DNA from: Sipunculus nudus
Lineage: Eukaryota; Annelida; Sipuncula; Golfingiida; Sipunculidae
NCBI GenBank assembly: GCA_026874595.1
Contig: CM049306.1
Span: forward strand, 36,286,019 to 36,350,018
Length of the DNA: 64,000 nucleotides
Direction of reading: 5' to 3'
The notes under the pieces are model-generated. The model was not told the origin of the DNA and did no database searches. It was given only the letters and a program-made list of their open reading frames with translations. Both the position numbers and the translations under genes were made by a program. Positions 1 to 64,000 of the stretch are shown in pieces (positions within the stretch are counted from its first letter, which is position 1; every line of letters starts with the position of its first letter).

Positions 1-177
1 TGGACTGTCATCCATGAGTTCTTCCATCATGCTAGTAACCTTGGCCTCTGTTGGTTCCTTTTTGATGACAGTCAGGCCGCTGGTCTGTTGGTTTATGACA
101 TCAGCGATGAGCTCACTATTACTGGCAGCTAGACCAGGGTTGGAGATTCCCTGTGCTTTCATCATCATCTCAAGTTC
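1..177 (-). CDS. Mitf: Mitf exon 8 (partial): end of zipper and C-terminal region
   Basis: The last exon visible (residues 375-433), open to the left edge of the window, so the C-terminus is not seen. ELEMMMKAQGI (375-385) continues the zipper as vertebrate ELEMQARAHGL. VIKKEPTE (411-418) corresponds to IIKQEPVLE, where MITF Lys316 is SUMOylated within a psi-K-x-E motif; here Ile412-Lys413-Lys414-Glu415 preserves it. The exon continues TSMMEELMDDSP, which resembles the LEDILMDD block before the C-terminal serine-rich tail. The acceptor aattaacag|GAA lies at 178/177 with a weak pyrimidine tract. The frame is open over all 59 codons. Confidence 0.96.
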
Positions 178-1172: not shown

Positions 1173-1320
1173 CTGTATCCGCAGCAGCATTTTTCTATTG
1201 GTGTCCTCCAGCTGGCGCTGTCTGTCTTCCATGCTGCGTAATCGTCCCTGGTCTCTCTTTAACCTTCTTATGTAGTCTACTGAAGCTTTCAAGATGGTCC
1301 CTTTGTTCTGTCGCATGTCT
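1173..1320 (-). CDS. Mitf: Mitf exon 7: helix 2 and leucine zipper
   Basis: A 148-bp exon encoding residues 326-374. [20 protein letters not shown] (326-345) is the end of the loop and helix 2. It differs from vertebrate [20 protein letters not shown] at Trp to Gln329 and Lys to Arg344. The zipper then runs through [20 protein letters not shown] (355-374), matching [20 protein letters not shown]. The family's zipper register limits dimerisation to family members. The acceptor is gttttacag|AGAC (1321/1320). The donor is CAG|gcaagt at 1173/1172, a GC rather than GT donor with an otherwise ideal context. The next exon begins ELEM, exactly as in vertebrate RIQ|ELEM, so the junction is secure. Confidence 0.98.
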
Positions 1321-2134: not shown

Positions 2135-2210
2135 GGGTCTGTGGTGTTGGGCAGCAGAGTTCCCAATTCTTTTATTCTGTCATTGATGTTAAAGCGACGC
2201 CTTCTTTCAA
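2135..2210 (-). CDS. Mitf: Mitf exon 6: basic region and helix 1
   Basis: A 76-bp exon encoding residues 300-325 including both split codons. [20 protein letters not shown] (301-320) is the core basic region and first helix; the ERRRR stretch contacts the E-box. Conservation with vertebrates is essentially complete up to GTL. The loop NTTDP differs from KSNDP. The intron phase is 1 at the 5' side and 2 at the 3' side, and the length equals that of vertebrate MITF exon 7 as I recall it. The acceptor is attttcag|TTG (2211/2210); the donor ACCC|gtaagt (2135/2134). Confidence 0.98.
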
Positions 2211-3119: not shown

Positions 3120-3312
3120 TCATGTTGTGATTGTCCTTCTTTTGTCTTTCTTTCGCCCACATGCGTGCTTCATCATCAGTCATGAAAGGTGGCGCCTCCT
3201 GTCTTACACGACCTCCATGATGACCGACTGTTGCTGGACACGATGACGGATTATTTCCCGGGCTTTGATTATTGTCATAGAGGTGATCGGGAATATTGTT
3301 ATTCTGTGGCAT
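3120..3312 (-). CDS. Mitf: Mitf exon 5: 14-3-3-type site and start of basic region
   Basis: The exon spans residues 236-299 plus one base of codon 300. SSCPA (258-262) matches the NSCPA/SSCPA of vertebrate family members. The serine before Cys (Ser259) is equivalent to TFEB Ser211, the mTORC1 site that recruits 14-3-3 and holds the factor in the cytosol. VRQE (271-274) lies where vertebrates have the IKRE SUMO site, so the acceptor lysine is replaced by Arg272. DDEARMWAKERQKKDNHNM (281-299) leads into the basic DNA-binding region and is nearly invariant in the family from AKERQKKDNHN on. The acceptor has a long T tract (ttttttgcag|ATG, 3313/3312); the donor ATGA|gtaagt is at 3120/3119. No exon 6a-like six-residue insert (ACIFPT in vertebrates) is seen. 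Confidence 0.97.
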
Positions 3313-3685: not shown

Positions 3686-3790
3686 TGTGTGTGACATTTG
3701 TGCGAGAGATGGTTCTATGAAGGTTAGGTCGTTGTCCATGGTGGCGTCCACAGACTCCAGACTCATGATTTCTCCGAGGATGTCATCCAC
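3686..3790 (-). CDS. Mitf: Mitf exon 4: acidic transactivation segment
   Basis: The exon spans residues 201-235 (35 codons, phase 0 at both ends). VDDILGEIMSLES (201-213) is the family's conserved acidic activation helix (DDVIDEIISLES in vertebrates), known in MITF as the contact for p300/CBP. It is followed by DNDLTFIEPSLAQMSHT, matching the EEILGLMDPALQMANT region. The acceptor reads gaaacag|GTG at 3791/3790 and the donor ACA|gtaagt at 3686/3685, close to full consensus. A tRNA-derived SINE begins only about 40 bases downstream in the short 373-bp intron, and a 42-bp minisatellite lies about 90 bases upstream in the preceding intron. Confidence 0.97.
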
Positions 3791-6554: not shown

Positions 6555-6803
6555 CTCTGACACACTGGTGGCAGCACTGCTCATCCCGGCTGAGAGTGGG
6601 CTGTCGGGGTCAGCAGGTGCGCTCCCGTAATGTGCTGGAAGGAGCGAGTTTGACGAAGATGTCGGAACACTGTGGCAGGTGGCTGCCGGAAGCGACTGGA
6701 TGTGGCCATCATGCTGGTGGCCAGTGTTCAAAAATTCTTTAATCTGTCTTTTCTGACTTTGCTGTACATGAAACTTTGTCGGATGCAACAAGCGTGTTGT
6801 AAC
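6555..6803 (-). CDS. Mitf: Mitf exon 3: HPTKFH block and proline-directed serine region
   Basis: The exon spans residues 118-200 (83 codons, phase 0 at both ends). It opens VTTRLLHPTKFHVQQSQKRQ (118-137), the counterpart of [20 protein letters not shown] in vertebrate MITF, followed by IKEFLNT where vertebrates have VKQYLST. A His/Gln/Ser-rich linker follows. SAPADPDSPLS (178-188) corresponds to SAPNSPMAM; Ser185 sits where MITF Ser73 and TFEB Ser142, the ERK/mTORC1 sites, are found, with two extra residues in the spacing. The acceptor is tttcag|GTT at 6804/6803 and the donor GAG|gtaaac at 6555/6554. The start of the exon is certain from homology; the second half is variable in the family and was placed from the open frame and the donor. 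Confidence 0.96.
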
Positions 6804-13182: not shown

Positions 13183-13405
13183 CTTTAATACTCTGGGTGG
13201 GACTTCTCCATTGGAGTTGGAACTTGGGAGTTCTATATTCTGGCTGGGTAAGCAGTAAGACTGGTCGGCAGGCTGTAGAGATGAGAAGCTCGGTAACGGC
13301 ACGGACTGTTCTCGACGCTCCTGATCCTCGACTTGTTGCTTCATCAACTGAAGCTTCAGATTCGTGCGATTGGTCATGGCAGTCTCCTTGACCTCAGGTG
13401 CTGGG
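13183..13405 (-). CDS. Mitf: Mitf exon 2: Rag-binding-type N-terminal block
   Basis: The first common exon (residues 43-117 of the 1A isoform; it starts with the last base of a split codon and ends in phase 0). It carries ATG-initiated TNRTNLKLQLMKQQ (54-67) and EDQERREQ (69-76). These match the family block SRIxLRxQLMREQ and EQERREQ. In TFEB this N-terminal block contacts the Rag GTPases and brings the factor to the lysosome for mTORC1 phosphorylation; here Gln62, Leu63 and Met64 fall in that block. The exon ends PPRVLK, just before the HPTKFH block of exon 3. The donor is AAG|gtaaga at 13183/13182. Met53 has a fair context (GCCATGA), so transcripts with a non-coding first exon could start here, as TFEB does. 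The acceptor is a tandem AAGCAG. Confidence 0.96.
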
Positions 13406-16400: not shown

Positions 16401-17941
16401 GCAAATGAATTCTTGGTGACCTTTGGTTAAAAGTTTGTCTGAGCCTGCTTGGATAAATTATACCTCCCCCAAGCAGCATTGAAATTTATAAATAGTTCCA
16501 GACTGCCCACTATACCAGGATGAAAGCCAAAATCCTCTTGGCAATAGTCAGGGCCTCACACATGTGGAGCATCCATACGTGTTTGTACCTTATCACTCTG
16601 AGTCATCCTCACATATATTATACATATATTATATGTAAACTCTACCTACCCAAACACTTCATACCCCCACCCCCAAAGGTCTGATTGAAATACAATACTG
16701 TACATACTATATAGGGTATATATTAATTAAAACATCAAAAGAAGGGTACTCTCAGTAAATAAAAATAGTAGTTCATACAATTGCCAAGCGCATATAGTTC
16801 ATCAAGGAAAATGTGCAGTATTATTGTATTTAGTTTTTTTTGTCTAATATGTATTAGTCAAAGTTTAACCAATAGTAAGATAGACATCACATAAAAATTT
16901 AGCCTTCTGATATTCCCGCATTTTTATGCAATTTATAAATTATTTCTTTTCAAAGTTGTAAAGTTTATAATTGCATTAAACCTATAAAACAGATCATGAA
17001 ATGCAATGCTTATAAAGTTTTAAAGGTAACAAACTATGAAACCATGCAATTTCTTAAATCTATCACAATTTTTTCATGCCAACATATCTGAAAATGATAA
17101 AACATTAATTAAGTTTAAAGTCTGCTAATTATTAAGCATTCCTTTATTCTTAAACTATACAGTGGTAAAAATTCTAAAATTTTTTCTATAAATTAATTTA
17201 AATGCAAGAAATTAAATTGAAAATCATGCATTAATTTGCAAATGAAATGCATCACTCTCCACATCAGCACATATTAACATGACACCATGCAAAATAAGAA
17301 TTAAGCATGACTCTGTTATTTGTACACTTAACTTCAAAATATACTTCTTATTAAATCAATTATTTTGTCTGCTAAACTATAAATGCCAGAGGTAAAGAGG
17401 CTAACATCTCTGTGTAGGCCTTCACTTTATCAAATGACACAAGCAAACTGCACATCAAACATAAATCCATCACTTACATTTAATTTCCGAAGTCTGCATG
17501 GTAATACCAGTAAGGATCAATAAATAGAAAAAAGCAAACATATCTGAACTGAACTAATTTTTTTCTGATTTCATAATAAAACAGGTGGCTGTGTTTAATT
17601 CTAAAGTACAAAAAGCCTACAAAATATCTAGTAGGGATACTTATAAAGTAAATTTAACATTTTTGTCTGGATGACTCCAATTTATCCTGTACTCAAAGAA
17701 CAGTCACCTTAACTCAACTCCTTAAAGTTAAAATTTGTCATTAAAAAGTCAATTTTACTCAAATACATATTTTTTCAGCATGAATGACTGAAATGTTTTA
17801 AATTTATTAACTAATGATGTTTTCTGTACTGGGTGTTAGTAAAGCATTTATAAATGAAGCGAGTTAAAAAAAATGCAAAGAAATTTAAACTGCAAAATAA
17901 AATGCAACTAAATAAAAAAAATCTACAAAAGAAACACATAC
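13412..17941 (-). other. Intron between exon 1B and exon 2
   Basis: About 4.5 kb of AT-rich DNA. A purine-rich stretch at 13550-14150 has scattered short frames and may be an old transposon remnant, not identified. The segment 15000-17800 is very AT-rich with no recognisable feature. Confidence 0.75.
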
Positions 17942-18096
17942 CAAGCATACCAATAGGCCGCGAATCCATAGTAGTCATTACCACGATAGTAATCCTTGTA
18001 TTCGTAAAGGCACTGCGGCTGATACGACTTGGAATACTGACAGTCACTGTAGCTGTGATAGTTCCTATAATAGTCTTGTCCAACCATGGTTTCCAT
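17942..18096 (-). CDS. Mitf: Mitf alternative first exon 1B: tyrosine-rich N-terminus
   Basis: This putative alternative first coding exon starts at ATG 18096-18094 in a good initiation context (ACAATGG), with a second in-frame ATG at codon 4. An in-frame TGA lies upstream at 18174-18172. It encodes 51 codons plus two bases, beginning METMVGQDYYRNYHSY, with 14 tyrosines including three YY pairs, and no ESG motif. The preferred donor is TTG|gtatgt at 17942/17941. A second gtatgc donor at 17951/17950 leaves the same phase. Both leave phase 2 and so splice in frame to exon 2, creating a cysteine codon. I do not recognise this peptide. The evidence is the start context, the open frame, the donor and phase match, and the promoter-like DNA upstream. 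The alternative is a fortuitous ORF beside an unrelated CpG-rich element. Confidence 0.6.
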
Positions 18097-18560
18097 TGTT
18101 AAATATTTAATCTTATAAATTAACAAAATTAAGCGATTAAGTAAACATCCATTGATCGATAAGGCACAACGTCAACTGTTCCATGTGGCGTGGTGGCTTT
18201 TCTCGAGCACTGTTATTAACTTCCTAAATTGCCACGAAAAACTTGTGAAGTAACTTTGATACAGTGAGTGACGCATGCAGAGCATGAGGAGGGGCTGGTG
18301 ACAGTCTCAGTAGCACGTGCCAGCGACAATGTGGTTGGCCGGGTAAGGGAAGTACCCTAATATATACTCCCGCTGGAGGCTCATTATAATATTGCACAGT
18401 GGTTGGGTATGTTCTCTGACTGGGTGGCTTGGCTGTGATGATGTCATCACTACAGGCTACCGGGAATTCAGTTTACCAGTGTCTCTCTGATCCCTGCTGA
18501 CAGCTAGGTCCGTGCCTTTAAACGATATCCCAAGTAGCTGATAGGCTGATACTTCTCCCA
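18097..18560 (-). promoter_or_regulatory. Putative alternative promoter and 5'UTR of exon 1B
   Basis: A GC- and CpG-richer block in AT-rich DNA immediately upstream of the exon 1B ATG. Read on the minus strand it contains a TATATATTA-type element around 18357-18366, a palindromic E-box CACGTG at 18314-18319 and CACATG near 18182-18187. A TGATGTCATCA-like CRE/AP-1 sequence lies at about 18438-18449. The TATA-like element would place a start site near 18330, giving a 5'UTR of about 230 bases. CACGTG is the target of MITF/TFE proteins themselves, so autoregulation is possible, but one such site is expected by chance in roughly every 9 kb at this base composition. Confidence 0.5.
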
Positions 18561-18730
18561 GGTCCACTCCAGCTTTCAATTAACGTTTACCGTTACAGCA
18601 GTAAAGAGTAGCAAACTTATGGTACACACAGCCAGTATCAGAATTGTATACAAAGGCTCCAGTTAAACTAGCATACTCATATCTAAATTCCTTAATGTTT
18701 TTTAATGATATACCCATAACAGGGTTGAGT

Positions 18731-30400: not shown

Positions 30401-31019
30401 GTAAATTTCTCCATAGAAAACCCTTACAAATGATTGAATTTCCATTGTTCTCACTATTTGGACTGGGTCTGTAGGCTCTTTATTACAGCCTAAAGCCCTA
30501 AATATGTTTTTATCATTTATCAATTGGTTCCTCAGCTTTTTTGGTATTTATCAGGAAACCTATACATCAGGAAACACAGGCAAGTTTTTTAAATATTCAT
30601 GAAATTTTAACTGTATCGAAATTCAATTATATGATACATGAGTGATCTATTCACTATCCTCTCATCTCTCAGGTATTATATGTGGTCAAATGGTCATCAA
30701 AGCCTCATAGTGCAACCTGATACTGACAATTAATTCAATGAAGCCCCACAGACAGCACAGATCAGTGACCCTGTAAATAAAGATTAACATATACACTGGT
30801 CTATCTGAACCCAGTCCAACCACACCCCCATCTCTTGGCTCAACTTTAATGGCAGCCAGCTGATTTAAATTTAAATAATCAGTTAAACAAACATCTGGAG
30901 AAGTATGTAAGAGATAACAATGATCAGTAAACCCTTACTTATACTTAGTTTTCCTTTATACTGTGACTGGCTTTTTGTTCAGAACGGTTTTAAATTTTGT
31001 AATATTTACACAAGGTCAA

Positions 31020-31720
31020 TTTTACGCTACGCTCCCGAGGCAGCGGAAATCTTGCGCTTCTAAAGAAGCAACTGATTTTCATGCTGCCAGCTTTGACCGT
31101 TTATGATATATTTAGACACCAGATGGCGGTTCGTTGTCCGCTGAAATAAAAAGTGCGTATAATGTGACAAGCAGCCAATCAGGTGCCAATAAACAAATAC
31201 TCGACAGGCATCCTGGCTCCGCCTATTGCTGCGCTTCAAGTGCCGCTTGATGAGTTTCCGGTCAAATTTAAATTACTCCTGCATTCTCGCATCATCGACC
31301 AATTCGATTATGACATTATGACTGTGTTAGCGTAGCCATGTATCTGTTGTCTGCAGAACTGAAACAAGCCAGCGAGGTGTGCATGCAGCCATGGTTGTTA
31401 CGTTTCGTTTGAATTACAGCTCACAGGCCGAGCATCCTGTGTGCCCAAGGCCCTGAGCAGACCACGTCTCCGGCAATTCTCTCTGAGCCTGTGGCCTGTT
31501 CAGACGGTTACGCGGGGCGATGAGCTGTCACTCAAAACAAAATAAACATGATTGGCTCCGTGTATTCCTCGCTTGGCTTTGTCTTCCAGCACAAGGTCTC
31601 ATCTGATTGGACAAAAATACAGTGCTTCCCTCTGGTGTAGCAATTCAGGATACGAGGTCATAACAAACAGCGCCTTACGATATAGGTAGTAGCCCTATAG
31701 GTAAAGCGCTGTGTAAAGAG
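31020..31720. promoter_or_regulatory. GC/CpG-rich island with CCAAT boxes inside intron 1
   Basis: A sharply bounded block with many CG dinucleotides inside an AT-rich intron. It holds CCAATCA on the plus strand at about 31173-31179, and two more CCAAT boxes on the minus strand near 31549-31555 and 31604-31610. Such composition usually marks a promoter or enhancer. About 110 and 170 bases downstream of the minus-strand CCAAT boxes is an ATG (31435-31433) followed, after CTC GGC CT, by gtgagc. That is a possible tiny first exon, MLG plus a phase-2 end that would fit exon 2. The donor has a poor exon side (CCT), so I treat the exon as hypothetical and the island itself as the supported feature. 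Confidence 0.4.
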
Positions 31721-33400
31721 CGTAATTTTACGCAAAATTAACACCTTATATAATATGCCAAACATACCCAGATCATAATTCATATTTTATACACTCATCA
31801 ACTTACATCACCTCATTTACATTATCCAAGCCTGTTATTTCAAAAGTGGAAATGGTGAAGATTTATAAATACATGAAGGCCTAATAAAATATCTTTTTTT
31901 CTGTATTCCGTAATGATATATAATATCAGGCCTTTATATTAGCTACAAATAATCAACAAGAAGTTCTACTTTTTTGTTATTTCCATCTGACCGTTATAAT
32001 TTTTTAAAAGATTTTGCATGATTAAAATCTGCTATATTATAGTTATGGATATAATGGATATGAAGGAGGCAATTGTAAACATGGAATCCTTGCGTAATAC
32101 TAGAAAAATTTAAATTAGAAAAATTTTACACCTGCAAATATGAAGCCAACCACCATATATAGCCTCATGCCTTTCTACATCACACAACACACACATAGTA
32201 CCTTCCTTTGACTTAATATCACTGAGTTAATAATACATAGGTCACAGCTCATTAAAATTTAAATCAACAACTACATAAAACAAATAGGTCAGCATGTTTA
32301 ATTATTATATCATTATATTTATCAAGCCTTTTCTGACAGGGTTTCATAAATATCAGCACAGCACTTGAGCAGAAAACATTATGCATGCTAAGTTTTAACA
32401 TATTCCGAGACTTCTCCATGGCTATGGTTTGTTATCAATATATTAAATCTTCATACATCTACCAATTTGAAAATATACAGGACATCTGAGTACTCACAAA
32501 TATGCTAATTAATGGTAGGAATCAGTTGTAAAATTATATCTTTTGATTGATGGTCGATTTTTTATTATTTTATGTAATATCTATATTACTAGGAATTCTG
32601 CAGTATAGAATTTTACTTAAAATGGTCATGGTAATGGCCGCATTGTTATTGCGACACTAAGTGTCTTTGGCATTTCTGTGACAGAATAAGAATATTTTAT
32701 TGGGTTAATATGACTTCTTTGGATGTGCATACATCATCATTCATGATCAATAATGCAAAAATGCAATCAATTTAATAGATTATGAGAGAAAACGACCGAT
32801 TATCAATATTATCAATAACTGGCACACCACTAATTCTGATACACCTGATCTGACATTTCTAAAGGAGTAAATAAAAGTTCAAGAAAAATAATAAGAAAGA
32901 AAGCGTAAATTTGATACAAAATACCAGTTGTATATGTTCTCTTACAATGCATTCATGTTGTTTGCAGATAGCTGAAACTTGCTTGAAGTATTGTGATGCT
33001 TTGGGTGCAGTGGGTGTAATGATGCATATAGTTTTTCACTCAACAAAATACGTCATTGGTCAAAGTGAAAGAATAGGACAAAGCATACATATCATTTTCA
33101 CAAAATGGCCATTTATTTACAAGGGAACTGGATCTCAAACCACGTGCAGAAGTTGATCTTTAGAGGGGAAGTGCAAATAATCATGAGTATAAACAATATG
33201 CACAGTATTAAAAGGTGATTTTTTAAATGCAAAAATACTTTTTTTAGGAGGATGTGTGAGCACATCAGACAGACACAAGACAAAAAAGTTAATACAGACA
33301 AGACTTCAATACGTTATTTAAGTTATTCTTTACTGTTCTTTCACTTTCCTTATTCAGTGTCTCACACCACGCCCTGTCCCTGTCTAGTCGTGAACTAACT

Positions 33401-34030: not shown

Positions 34031-35532
34031 TCTTTCATAAATATGGCACCTGATCTACACAGGTGAACTGCCACTTACACTATGACCTTATTTGGCATCT
34101 TATGTAACATATGTCAGTGTCAATATAAATACATTTTATGTTAAATGTAAATCAAAGACTGATATATAAATAGTATAACTTGTGTATATCTGCCTCTGTT
34201 ATAGAAGATTTTTACTCTTATTCAAGATTTCCTTAGGTCCTCGTAAAATTGTTAAGTTTTTGTGTGAATATTAGGTAATTGATATAGAAATGTTATGTAA
34301 ACTATGTAATAAATGTAAGGTGAGTTCATGAATATTTTACCAACCAAAGTATATGTGTGTCAATAACATATCAATTTAATGGATTGTAATATTTAAAATT
34401 AAATTTGTATGGGGTATCTCAGCATGTCTTCATTATTAAATACAGTAAACTGCCATTGCATATCAGCCCCATCTTGTGTTTATTTAATGAAACATATGAA
34501 GTTTGAGTAAAGCATTAAAACTAGATAATTCCTTTGTATTTTCTTATACATTTGAGTGGATAGCCAATGAAAATACCTAACATTTCACTGCACTGAGCTG
34601 AAATATGATTAAAGTTAATGTTTATTGGAAAATATAGATATCTTGTTCAAAGGTGCCCTAATTTAAAACTTGACAAATATACTCATGAATGGAATATTTG
34701 AATAAACCTGTAAAAAAAGTAATGTGTTCGTGCTTAACCCTTTTTCATGTACCTGCATCTAGCTTTTACTTGCCCTACATGAATCTTTACTTGTCCTACA
34801 AAAGTGACCATAGCCATGAACACAGTGTGTGTTCCACACAGTTGTGGTGCATGGTAGACATTTAAAATGTTAAAATAACTGTTAACAATATATAATAATT
34901 TTAATAATATATTCTTAAACTAGTATTTTACCAGATTTACTCCCAAAAAGAAAATGGCTAACTGCAAAATACATTTCTTAGGTTAAATGCCTTAACGATA
35001 AATGCTTTAACCACCAGGAAATGTTGTATGATTATATAATTAATACGTTTAATCATAAGTCCTTTGATTTTATCTTGCTTGAACTTCACATGTGCACTAA
35101 ATTGTTCACTCCTGAATCTACTGGTTATTAGATTATCAAGAGATGCTATAACAGACTAAGATAAAGTAAAAAAACAAATAATAAATAAATAAAATGTAAA
35201 ATATTTGCATATGGGGGTACAAGGTGCAGAGAACACTGCCACCACTGTAATGCATATTATTAATTAGATTTTCTAATCAGTTTTATTTTTGTAAATTCCA
35301 GGTTCTTTCTATTTGGTTACAACAGTTAAACAGCCCTGCCATGATAAGATCAAAGTTAACCCCAGCCCTTAAAATGATACATGATGTTGGCTCAAATTTC
35401 TGAAATTCAATCAATACTTGATCATAATCTGACATGGAAAGTGATAGAATTACTATATGCCAGATATATCATTCCACCATTCCTGATGATTATTGACCAC
35501 AGATAGCGTATATAAACTTCCTACTGCTATGT

Positions 35533-35533
35533 A

Positions 35534-35579
<46 letters not shown>

Positions 35580-35600
35580 TATATATGTATATAAATATAC
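35533..35600. repeat. AT/TA-rich array with interruptions
   Basis: TATATA repeats with a few C and G interruptions, about 68 bp. Confidence 0.9.
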
Positions 35601-35899
35601 ACCGGGTTCATACCAATCCTGAAATTTAAACCTGCACAATATTTTAAGAACCTAACTTGACTATTTTATACAGGTCTTCAATGTTAGGCTATATCTGCAC
35701 TTGGTTAGCATCTAAATCGGATTATGCTAATCCGGTTTACTTTAGTCTCGAAGTTGTACGCCTTGCAACCACACTGTGGTTAACTTCATAAAAGCCTAAA
35801 TCGGTTTATTTAATAAAACGTTAGTTTGTTGTCTGCACTTGTTTGTTAATCTGATATACTGTGCTACAAAATGACATATTAAACGGCAAGGATTACATT

Positions 35900-36480
35900 A
35901 GTCCAGAACTGAATGCTGAGGGGCCTTGTAAAAACACCCCGTCTGTCAGCGTCTAGCACAAAAGCGCTATACATTCCATTCTTCCAGCAATCAAATCAGG
36001 CTGGAAAGTTTGTCATGGCTAAACGCTCATATCACAGCACCACCAACGGTAAACTTCAGGTAAGAATTATGAAATGTAAAATGCTTTACCTTCTTACAGC
36101 AATATTATGCTTGTCTCTTAACCTTTCAAATAACCCCATGTATTGTGCATTGACAATGTAACCGCACATTTGAAAGATAAGCAGAATTGTGAACTTCACC
36201 TTCATGCACAGTTTATTAAGGGATTATTTGATATTTTATCGACAGACAGGCGTGATACCACTGTCAGAAGGTAACATTTACATTTACATGTTACATTTCA
36301 TAATTCTGACCCGAAGTTTACCGTTGGTAAGGCTGTGATTTGAGCGTTTAGCGGTGACAAACAGTCGAGCCTGATTTGACGGCTGGAAGAATGGAATGTG
36401 GCTCTTTGGTGCTTGATGCTGACGACAGGGGCTTTGGTGGCGGGGGATTTGTGAGGACCGTCATTGTTCAGTTCTGGACT
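35900..36480. mobile_element. Foldback element with ~180-bp inverted arms
   Basis: The segment 35900-36080 is matched in reverse complement by 36291-36480 over nearly its full length. Shared blocks include GTCCAGAACTGAA, CATTCCATTCTTCCAGC, AATCAGGCT, GGCTAAACGCTC and CCAACGGTAAACTTC. A spacer of about 210 bp separates the arms. Weaker inverted similarity extends outside (GACATATT near 35872 and 36490; GGTTTACTTT near 35739 and 36586), so the whole element may span about 35700-36620. No transposase frame is present. It is a long-TIR MITE or foldback element of unknown superfamily. Confidence 0.8.
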
Positions 36481-61420: not shown

Positions 61421-62524
61421 GACTAAGGGTTTGTTCATGAATTACAACATTCCACAACCTAGACTGGATCAAACAATATGGACTGACTGGATTCATGGGA
61501 AGGACACCAAATTTTATGTGTTCTATATATGAGGAGATACAAATGCAAATGATTATTCAAGTGAAATGGGTCAATGCTTGCAAAATAAGGATTAATAAAA
61601 TGTAAAATAATGTCAATGCACTATATGAAAATATAACATGCAAATAGAGTCCATGGTTCATCATAAATGATTAACTTAATTCGCAGTTAATAAGCCGGAT
61701 TTAAAAAAGTAAAGAGACCATCAACTTTGAGAGAATTACATATCAATATTAGCCTGATAAATCTTGAGAGTTCACAAATCAATTACTAATGAATTACAGC
61801 TGTTATAACAGACCATATAAATAATATTTACTTAACAACTCATAACTCTTTTCATAAAAAAGTGTAGTTGCATTATTAACAGAACAGGTGTACTTCAGGT
61901 CCAGTGTCACAAATTGAATATTAATGTCACCTCTGGCAGGTCAAAGCACAATTTTTATCACACGTGAGTCCTCCATTCATTTGCACCATTGCGACACTTT
62001 ATTACTTTGTTTTTACTACCAGTAGGCAGTATCACAATTCTACCAATTTGACTTTTTTCAGTTTATGTAAGTGACATAGTGTTACACACAGTTCATGCAC
62101 ATGCATGTAAAATTTCATAAGCTTGTATGCTTCCTGCACATGAGCAATGTTCCAACGTCATAGCTTATCAGTATTAATGAGAAATCAATGGAGTAGATAC
62201 TTATATCAGGTGTGATCCCGATATCTCCGTTGGTAGCCTACTGTTGACATGTATGTACGTAAACTTACCCGAGCATGCTGTTATCTGGGTCACTTAGTAA
62301 ATGACTCAGCTCTAAGCCGTACTGTGTTTAGGATGTTCCTCGAAAGACAGCCTCCTGAAGAAAACAAATTCTTCCCCTCCCCACGGACCCCGCCTACCAG
62401 CGACCCCGTAACCCTGATACTAATAACACCGTACCTGCGCAACAATATGTGATCCGTGGGTTATGTCACAGTCGGTCAACCCTGATCTCGCCCCATGCAC
62501 AACTACTGAAGTGGGTTTATTTAC

Positions 62525-62652
62525 CTTCCGACAATGGGTTTGCTGATGAGGTCGTAAAACTGCCCTTGGTCCATTAAAGCTTCGTCAGACTCTAACAGTT
62601 TGTCGAAATCTAGATCAACCCCAGATTCCGTCATAATTGCTGCTGTGTCCAT
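62525..62652 (-). CDS. Mitf: Mitf exon 1A: start codon and degron-type N-terminus
   Basis: This is the first coding exon of the long isoform (residues 1-42 plus two bases of codon 43). The ATG at 62652-62650 is preceded by an in-frame TGA at 62712-62710, which fixes it as the first in-frame start. The peptide carries ESGVDLDFDKLL (residues 9-20) and FYDLISKPI (32-40). These align with ESGIV..D and FYELKSQPL in vertebrate TFE3 and with the MITF-A exon 1A peptide, which supports homology although only about 40 residues are compared. In vertebrates the serine of the ESG motif (TFE3 Ser47, as I recall) belongs to a phosphodegron linking nutrient status to turnover; Ser10 is the candidate equivalent here. 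The donor reads AAG|gtaaat at 62525/62524 and leaves phase 2, matching the exon 2 acceptor. No transcript evidence is available. Confidence 0.9.
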
Positions 62653-62960
62653 GAAATGAATTGATACTGGAGGATATTTTGACCAGGAAACTTCAGATTT
62701 TCTCGAACTTCAGCTGTTGACGTCCGCACGTCAGTGGGGGAATTTCCTGCTCGGCCCTCTCCAGTAGAGCCAATCAACAGCCTTGTCTCATATGATGCGA
62801 TGATATGTTGTGTAAGGAGATTGGCCATTCATGATATCACACAGCGTCATCAGCTAAAAATAGTAACAACCGGGCTTCCACCAAACAGCGGCTGCAATCG
62901 TTCGATAAATGTTATTGTTTATTACCAGATGGCGCCACGATTTGTTAGCGATTAGAAATA
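62653..62960 (-). promoter_or_regulatory. Putative promoter and 5'UTR of exon 1A
   Basis: This stretch directly upstream of the exon 1A ATG is richer in GC and CpG than its surroundings. On the minus strand it has CCAAT-type boxes near 62767-62771 and 62820-62825. CRE-like ACGTC/ACGTG sequences lie within 62719-62732, and a CAGATGGCGCC YY1/CTCF-like core at about 62926-62936. No convincing TATA box is positioned. The transcription start is probably somewhere in 62670-62800, but this is inferred from composition and motifs only. Confidence 0.55.
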
Positions 62961-63065
62961 TTTATGATATTGTAATGTGTGTCCGAAGTGGAAGGTTAAA
63001 CTAATAATTATTTTTAAATTTATCATACGCCCTGTGCTGAAGAACAATATACTGTCATGAACAAA

Positions 63066-63068
<3 letters not shown>

Positions 63069-63140
<72 letters not shown>
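63069..63140. repeat. Pure AT dinucleotide array (~72 bp)
   Basis: Uninterrupted AT repeat about 110 bases upstream of the YY1/CTCF-like end of the exon 1A promoter region. Confidence 0.95.
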
Positions 63141-63142
<2 letters not shown>

Positions 63143-63508
63143 GACTGAGTGAGTCACAACTGGAGCTTGATCGATTACCATGGCAACGATCATCAGTTTA
63201 GGGGCCATCTGCCATTATTCAGGGGTGGATCCAGGAGTCCTAATGACAAACTCTGATGAGAGGTCCCTGGACGGGAAAAAAAAGGGTCCAGGCCACAAAA
63301 AGTAGTCTGAAACCCTCGTAAAAAAGATTGCAGCGGCTGAAAACTGGTTGGGGTGTGTCTAAAATGATATTAAATGAACTTTGTGACAGGCTAATATTCA
63401 TTTTCAGTAGCGTCAATTTATATACAAGGGTATGGGGAGATAAATCGGAGTGGGATGGAGGGTAATCAAAGTAGGACCACTTTTTTTATAAAGACACATA
63501 AACACCCT

Positions 63509-63579: not shown

Positions 63580-64000
63580 CTGTTTGTGTGACAAATTCAA
63601 ATATAATATATAATTATATAAATAAGTATATGGTTTAAAAAATGTTTTCCGGTCGTATAGATTACTTCTAAACCGGGTCAAGATAGGCCTATATAATATT
63701 TCATTGTAAACTGAGTAAAGGAAACAAAGTCTGTAATTCTAATTAATAATTTATTTCATTTCCAATATATAAACATTATCCTCTTTACAGATAGGGGGTG
63801 ATTACATTAACCCCATCCCTCTATATTGACGCCCCTGCACATTTTTAATCATTTATCCTTATTTACCCTAAATAACAATAATAATACAGTTTATTAATTG
63901 CACACTGAAAGTCCATATATTCTGTATACATATAATGACATGAATGTAGAAAAAAATATGGTAATAGATATATAAATAGAGATGTCTGCAGGGATAAATT

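Follow-up and report, generated by a model that had tools for sequence, protein, structure and literature searches.

From its alternative promoters, vertebrate MITF produces the isoforms MITF-A, -B, -C, -D, -E, -H, -J, -Mc and -M, and seven alternative 5′ exons are described for TFEB (PMC9363479). In all of these MITF isoforms but -M, the first exon is joined to exon 1B1b. This exon encodes a segment through which MITF can interact with active Rag-GTPase heterodimers; it is lacking from the MITF-M isoform (PMC7470386). The Mitf proteins of the bivalves Pteria penguin and Meretrix petechialis are, like the protein studied here, invertebrate ones: that of P. penguin, PpMitf, combines a conserved N-terminal domain with a bHLH-LZ and has been linked to tyrosinase, the synthesis of melanin and innate immunity (PMC8173187). 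No isoforms are described in the available text of the two bivalve papers, where the word ‘isoform’ appears 0 times (PMC8173187) and twice, in the reference list (PMC6620822). Neither a tyrosine-rich MITF N-terminus nor an alternative first exon of an invertebrate Mitf is found among the literature matches listed, which consist of titles and abstract openings and include few subscription papers.

Here we analyse a window of 64,000 nucleotides of the Sipunculus nudus genome, the minus strand of which carries the 5′ portion of a Mitf gene and with it a candidate alternative first coding exon, exon 1B, at 17942..18096. The best explanation of this stretch, to which we give a probability of about 0.68, is that it would serve Mitf as an alternative first exon that is coding and has an intronic promoter. 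The promoter, at about 18.1–18.6 kb, would give rise to a short Mitf transcript, the first coding exon of which (18096–17942) would be spliced onto exon 2; a 51-residue tyrosine-rich, probably disordered tail would thus replace the conserved exon-1A N-terminus, and the 1B isoform would retain the Rag-binding segment, the activation region and the bHLH-zipper. If what looks like a second promoter and start exon in intron 1 is used, a further Mitf protein, unusual at its N-terminal end, could be made. It is the transcription, splicing and regulation of 1B, and the disorder and function of its tail, that we infer.

Exon 1B would resemble the vertebrate MITF first exons in being an alternative first exon with a putative promoter of its own, joined to the Rag-binding exon (PMC9363479, PMC7470386); it would differ from them in its N-terminus, which is 27% tyrosine. 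While alternative first exons are the normal state of vertebrate MITF, exon 1B is unusual in its sequence and composition. We know of no vertebrate MITF first exon that is so rich in tyrosine. Expression of exon 1B would mean that an animal Mitf switches its N-terminus by choice of promoter, to a tail whose composition is extreme (14 tyrosines in 51 residues). Two questions would then become testable: by what route a coding first exon can newly arise at a promoter inside an intron, and whether an aromatic tail alters the activity or partner choice of a transcription factor regulated by nutrients, or its control by kinases.

The Mitf gene and its common exons

The canonical, MITF-A-type first coding exon, exon 1A, was located by a motif search of the minus strand at 62525..62652; it encodes MDTAAIMTESGVDLDFDKLLESDEALMDQGQFYDLISKPIVG, ends in a GTAAAT donor in phase 2, and is presumably the counterpart of vertebrate MITF exon 1A, which it resembles. 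No database match covers exon 1A, and the PDB match of the 1A form begins at residue 53. The common part of the gene starts with exon 2 (13183..13405), which encodes the Rag-binding segment MTNRTNLKLQLMKQQ and is entered in phase 2 and left in phase 0. It is followed on the same strand by exon 3 (6555..6803), over which the PF15951 match continues, exon 4 (3686..3790), placed by the spliced open frame, exon 5 (3120..3312), which runs into the basic region, and exon 6 (2135..2210), encoding the basic region and helix 1. Helix 2 and the zipper are encoded by exon 7 (1173..1320), and the spliced open frame then passes through exon 8 (1..177), which continues beyond the window edge. Up to this edge the frame comprises 433 residues when it starts from exon 1A and 442 when it starts from exon 1B. 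The zipper-coding region is interrupted by a GC-AG intron between exons 7 and 8 (1173 / 177), exon 7 having the donor CAG/GCAAGT, and exon 7 also encodes MRQNKG, with Gln in place of the tryptophan in MRWNKG of MITF and TFEB.

As judged by database matches, the gene is a bona fide Mitf, a member of the MiT/TFE family (MITF/TFEB/TFE3/TFEC). The spliced 1B protein matches the Pfam families MITF_TFEB_C_3_N (PF15951; E 1.9e-22, residues 65–214) and HLH (PF00010; E 8.4e-15), and the best PDB matches of the 1A form are to TFEB (1.1e-55) and MITF (3.6e-44), the first one outside the family being USF2 (3.1e-07). Exon 2 taken alone still matches PF15951 (E 1.5e-08), and finds nothing in the PDB up to an E of 1. 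In the alignment, MTNRTNLKLQLMKQQ of exon 2 pairs with MASRIGLRMQLMREQ of TFEB, starting from TFEB Met1; the Rag-binding residues R4, Q10 and L11 (the latter two a Gln-Leu pair) are retained, and Ser3 is replaced by Asn. By this comparison, exon 2 carries a TFEB-like Rag-binding segment. No tRNA genes were found in the window by ARAGORN with the bacterial code, and no Rfam families at gathering scores.

Exon 1B lies inside the 49-kb interval between exons 1A and 2. The two first exons are 44 kb apart, both end in phase 2 and both are in frame with exon 2; since the donor of exon 1A is in phase 2, the phase of exon 2 is supported independently of exon 1B. The acceptor of exon 2 is a NAGNAG (13408/13405), and either choice keeps the frame; the resulting exon 2 isoforms would differ by one serine. 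With a length of 223 or 226 nt, indivisible by three, exon 2 is obligatory from either first exon, and skipping it in the manner of MITF-M would be out of frame from 1A as well as from 1B, because both end in phase 2. Exon 1B is like exon 1M of MITF-M in that it would supply a short N-terminus of its own under an internal promoter (putative in the case of 1B), and unlike MITF-M, which does without exon 1B1b, in that it needs exon 2 to stay in frame. As exon 2 is obligatory, the 1B isoform would be expected to stay under lysosomal Rag/mTORC1 control.

Signals and boundaries of exon 1B

Exon 1B consists of 51 codons plus 2 nt, and ends in TG. Its start codon at 18096–18094 lies in the context AACAATGG, with A at −3 and G at +4, so that the good context described in the earlier note is indeed there; a second in-frame ATG follows at 18087, within ACCATGG. 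The in-frame stop that had been noticed upstream is the TGA at 18174–18172, separated from the ATG by 25 codons, and the reading frame is open from 18171. At its other end the exon stops at the GTATGT of 17941–17936 (TTG/GTATGT), directly after 17942, a phase-2 donor as claimed and as needed for exon 2, which is entered in phase 2. The strength of this donor is middling to weak: scored with a donor matrix it reaches 1.73, a value attained or exceeded by 4.7% of the minus-strand GT dinucleotides, and of the seven GT donors of the gene scored with the same matrix only that of exon 5 (0.74) is weaker. The exon anatomy, frame, phase and steps in composition are features of the sequence itself.

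The same boundaries bear on whether exon 1B could instead be an internal cassette exon, included between exons 1A and 2 and having no promoter of its own. While a weak acceptor-like TTATAAG/A is present just before 18111, near the ATG, a phase-2 entry from exon 1A would, when read by hand, meet a TAA at the fourth full codon, the exon 1B frame is open only from 18171, and a promoter-like CpG hump covers the region. We consider such a cassette very improbable.

At the donor the GC content drops from 0.43 in the exon to 0.22 in the next 100 nt. This step, and the end of the in-frame tyrosine bias, fall precisely at the phase-2 GT donor that exon 2 needs, which speaks against an independent small gene, or smORF, that would lie within intron 1 of Mitf and encode a tyrosine-rich microprotein unrelated to the Mitf protein. 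Read without splicing, the frame does continue for six codons beyond the last complete one of the exon, giving a product of 57 aa that ends in WYVFLL, a promoter-like hump lies upstream and an AATAAA is found downstream at 17808–17803; AATAAA is, however, expected often in AT-rich DNA. We regard an independent gene of this kind as quite unlikely, and prefer exon 1B as a first exon of Mitf.

The tyrosine frame of exon 1B

The 14 tyrosines of the 51-codon frame, both counts having been given correctly before, are at positions 9, 10, 13, 16, 21, 25, 31, 33, 36, 37, 42, 43, 48 and 50. The pairs noticed earlier amount to three YY, each of them preceded by D. The strongest coding test for exon 1B is the bias between frames. 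Over the three forward frames, TAT/TAC triplets are distributed 14:0:0 in exon 1B, as compared to 2:2:0 in the 153 nt upstream and 2:2:2 in the 153 nt downstream; the corresponding numbers of stop codons are 0:0:4 in the exon, 1:5:4 in the preceding 153 nt and 4:1:5 in the following 153 nt. If triplets were spread randomly, all 14 TAY would fall in one frame with P of about 6e-7. All 14 TAN codons in the frame are TAY, against a share of TAR among TAN triplets of 45–47%; this has P of about 1e-4 to 3e-4, a value to be read with caution because openness was a selection criterion. The tyrosine codons themselves are mixed, with a TAT:TAC ratio of 9:5.

Among the ATG ORFs of at least 51 codons in the whole window (40 on the minus strand and 50 on the plus strand), exon 1B has the most tyrosines, and the next three (13, 13 and 12) are (TA)n microsatellites; when stop-to-stop frames are considered, a microsatellite near 63663 has 17 tyrosines in 51 codons. 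Windows of 51 codons with at least 10 TAY form 14 clusters on the two strands, 10 of which contain the YIYI runs of (TA)n microsatellites, and the four clusters that do not are stop-free only at exon 1B. Likewise, separate windows with 14 or more TAN codons number 30, and three of these have an open frame: exon 1B and a pair at a single microsatellite near 63.7 kb. None of 40 first-order Markov sequences of 64 kb contained an open 51-codon stretch with 14 tyrosines, the maximum being 10, nor did an open frame with 14 tyrosines occur in any of 20000 first-order Markov sequences that took the exon as their model. The tyrosine frame of exon 1B is thus neither a chance opening nor a microsatellite, and the observation made from the sequence at 17942..18096 is confirmed as non-random.

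Other measures are less favourable to coding. Openness alone is weak evidence, since 4.2% of the exon-like Markov sequences are open, as are three more frames of the exon 1B stretch. Codon log-odds do not support coding: the value for exon 1B, −0.133 per codon in the right frame, is equalled or exceeded by 102 of 313 open stretches, while the next frame has +0.121 and exon 1A +0.339. The training set, exons 2–8 of the same Mitf gene, comprises about 1.2 kb and is poor in tyrosine. The three open frames and the negative log-odds would both be accommodated if the region were a non-coding CpG/GC-rich promoter or enhancer with a chance frame, translation then beginning at the exon 2 Met (MTNRTN...), which is the one aligned to TFEB Met1. 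The presence of upstream ATGs before exon 1B and of a similar hump at 31 kb with no evident coding first exon would fit as well. A chance frame does not, on the other hand, account for the confinement of the tyrosine bias to the span from ATG to donor, for the placing of all TAY in one frame or for the failure of the Markov windows to reach 14 tyrosines, and we judge a non-coding element to be unlikely.

With regard to a coding alternative first exon, the proposal of the earlier note stands as far as the anatomy is concerned, being borne out by the phase of exon 1A, the CpG/GC hump, the one-frame tyrosine codons and the frame into Mitf; its lineage-specific isoform, and the role that it gave to the tail as a low-complexity segment for interaction or phosphorylation, we retain as suggestions.

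Properties of the predicted tyrosine-rich tail

The 51 residues of the tail include 16 aromatic, six acidic and four basic ones and two of I/L/V, with a net charge of −2, and both Cys and Trp are present. We take the tail to be probably disordered. It contains three SY/QY steps, one YxN and one YxxQ; while a role in tyrosine-kinase signalling is possible, the latter two motifs count for little among so many tyrosines.

Tyrosine-rich low-complexity segments of the FET type (FUS/EWSR1/TAF15), with evenly dispersed aromatic residues, are joined to transcription factors in sarcoma fusions. The 1B form is like these in having a tyrosine-rich N-terminus (14/51) with SY/QY steps attached to a DNA-binding domain, and unlike them in that the tail is much shorter, has DYY steps, a negative net charge, and Cys and Trp, and has aromatics that are not evenly spaced. 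Even spacing of aromatics was not detected: 38% of 20000 shuffles were as even as the tail or more so, and for residues 9–51 22% of shuffles were as evenly spaced. One study finds that aromatic dispersion is uncorrelated with activity in a negatively charged backbone. The spacing, no more even than in shuffles, and the lack of such a correlation temper the reading of the tail as an aromatic interaction or activation segment, which we put forward tentatively, at somewhat worse than even odds. Bolder, and in our estimation doubtful, is the analogy in full: an aromatic activation or condensation segment would be natively joined to an MiT/TFE bHLH-zipper by a promoter switch, much as in a FET fusion, with the Rag-binding exon phase-locked and the product nutrient-controlled, and the first exon would have been born from intronic DNA in one invertebrate lineage.

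Searches with the tail returned no relatives in Pfam at E up to 1; 11 PDB sequences at E up to 10, of which the best, TYK2 (0.42), was judged a chance match; four pattern matches in viral contigs, none confirmed; and 53 pattern matches in prokaryotic genome contigs, none confirmed. These results mean little, because the collections searched (Pfam, PDB, viral and prokaryotic) are not animal genomes.

A putative promoter and the CpG landscape of intron 1

The stretch 18097..18600 (minus strand), upstream of exon 1B, is a putative promoter and 5′ leader, with a GC/CpG hump and the motifs TATATATTA (18366–18358) and CACGTG (18319–18314). The earlier note had called this DNA promoter-like, which its composition upholds: the CpG observed/expected ratio (o/e) peaks at 0.97 (17751–18250), as compared to a mean of 0.275 over 1270 windows of 500 nt. 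Exon 1A has a similar CpG hump (62151–63400, peak o/e 1.17). With a hump defined as o/e of at least 0.8 and at least 12 CpG per 500-nt window, the windows that pass are those at exon 1B, exon 1A, 30801–32000 and 35501–36050. As to the TATA motif, the TATAWA at 18366 is the only one between 18100 and 18700, and it is weak evidence for a promoter because such sites occur at 4.8 per kb. We do not claim autoregulation through the CACGTG, which is a single site with flanks that lack T/A; MITF prefers a flanking T/A around this motif.

Given the TATA at 18366, transcription would be expected to start at roughly 18330. Between this point and the exon 1B ATG there are five upstream ATGs, all frames of which end before the exon ATG, and for this reason the true transcription start may be nearer to the ATG. 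The upstream frame from ATG 18285/18276 (minus strand) shares the TGA at 18174–18172 that precedes the exon 1B frame; this frame and three shorter upstream ones could hold translation back, should the start be near 18330.

We also scanned the DNA upstream of exon 2 for first exons, requiring an ATG, at least 30 codons and a donor score of at least 1.7, a cut-off set when the 1.73 of exon 1B was already known and which the real donor of exon 5 (0.74) would fail. This yielded 11 phase-2 candidates, of which only exon 1A (CpG o/e 0.79), exon 1B (0.92) and one within a palindrome (0.67) exceed 0.34; the nine plus-strand controls have a CpG o/e of at most 0.55, and the four phase-0 candidates are all at up to 0.38. 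The third phase-2 candidate, with an ATG at 36205 and a signal-peptide-like start, was set aside because it lies inside an imperfect palindromic element. This element (35937–36430) is about 500 bp long, 73% identical to its own reverse complement and MITE-like, and overlaps the CpG window 35501–36050. CpG humps can thus be mobile elements, as the 36-kb palindrome warns; the regions of 1B, 1A and the 31-kb hump have no repeat match elsewhere in the window.

The remaining hump of intron 1, at 30801–32000, shows no evident coding first exon. With a CpG o/e of up to 1.00, a GC content of up to 0.51 and several CCAAT/ATTGG boxes, it may be an enhancer or an additional promoter whose first exon is non-coding.
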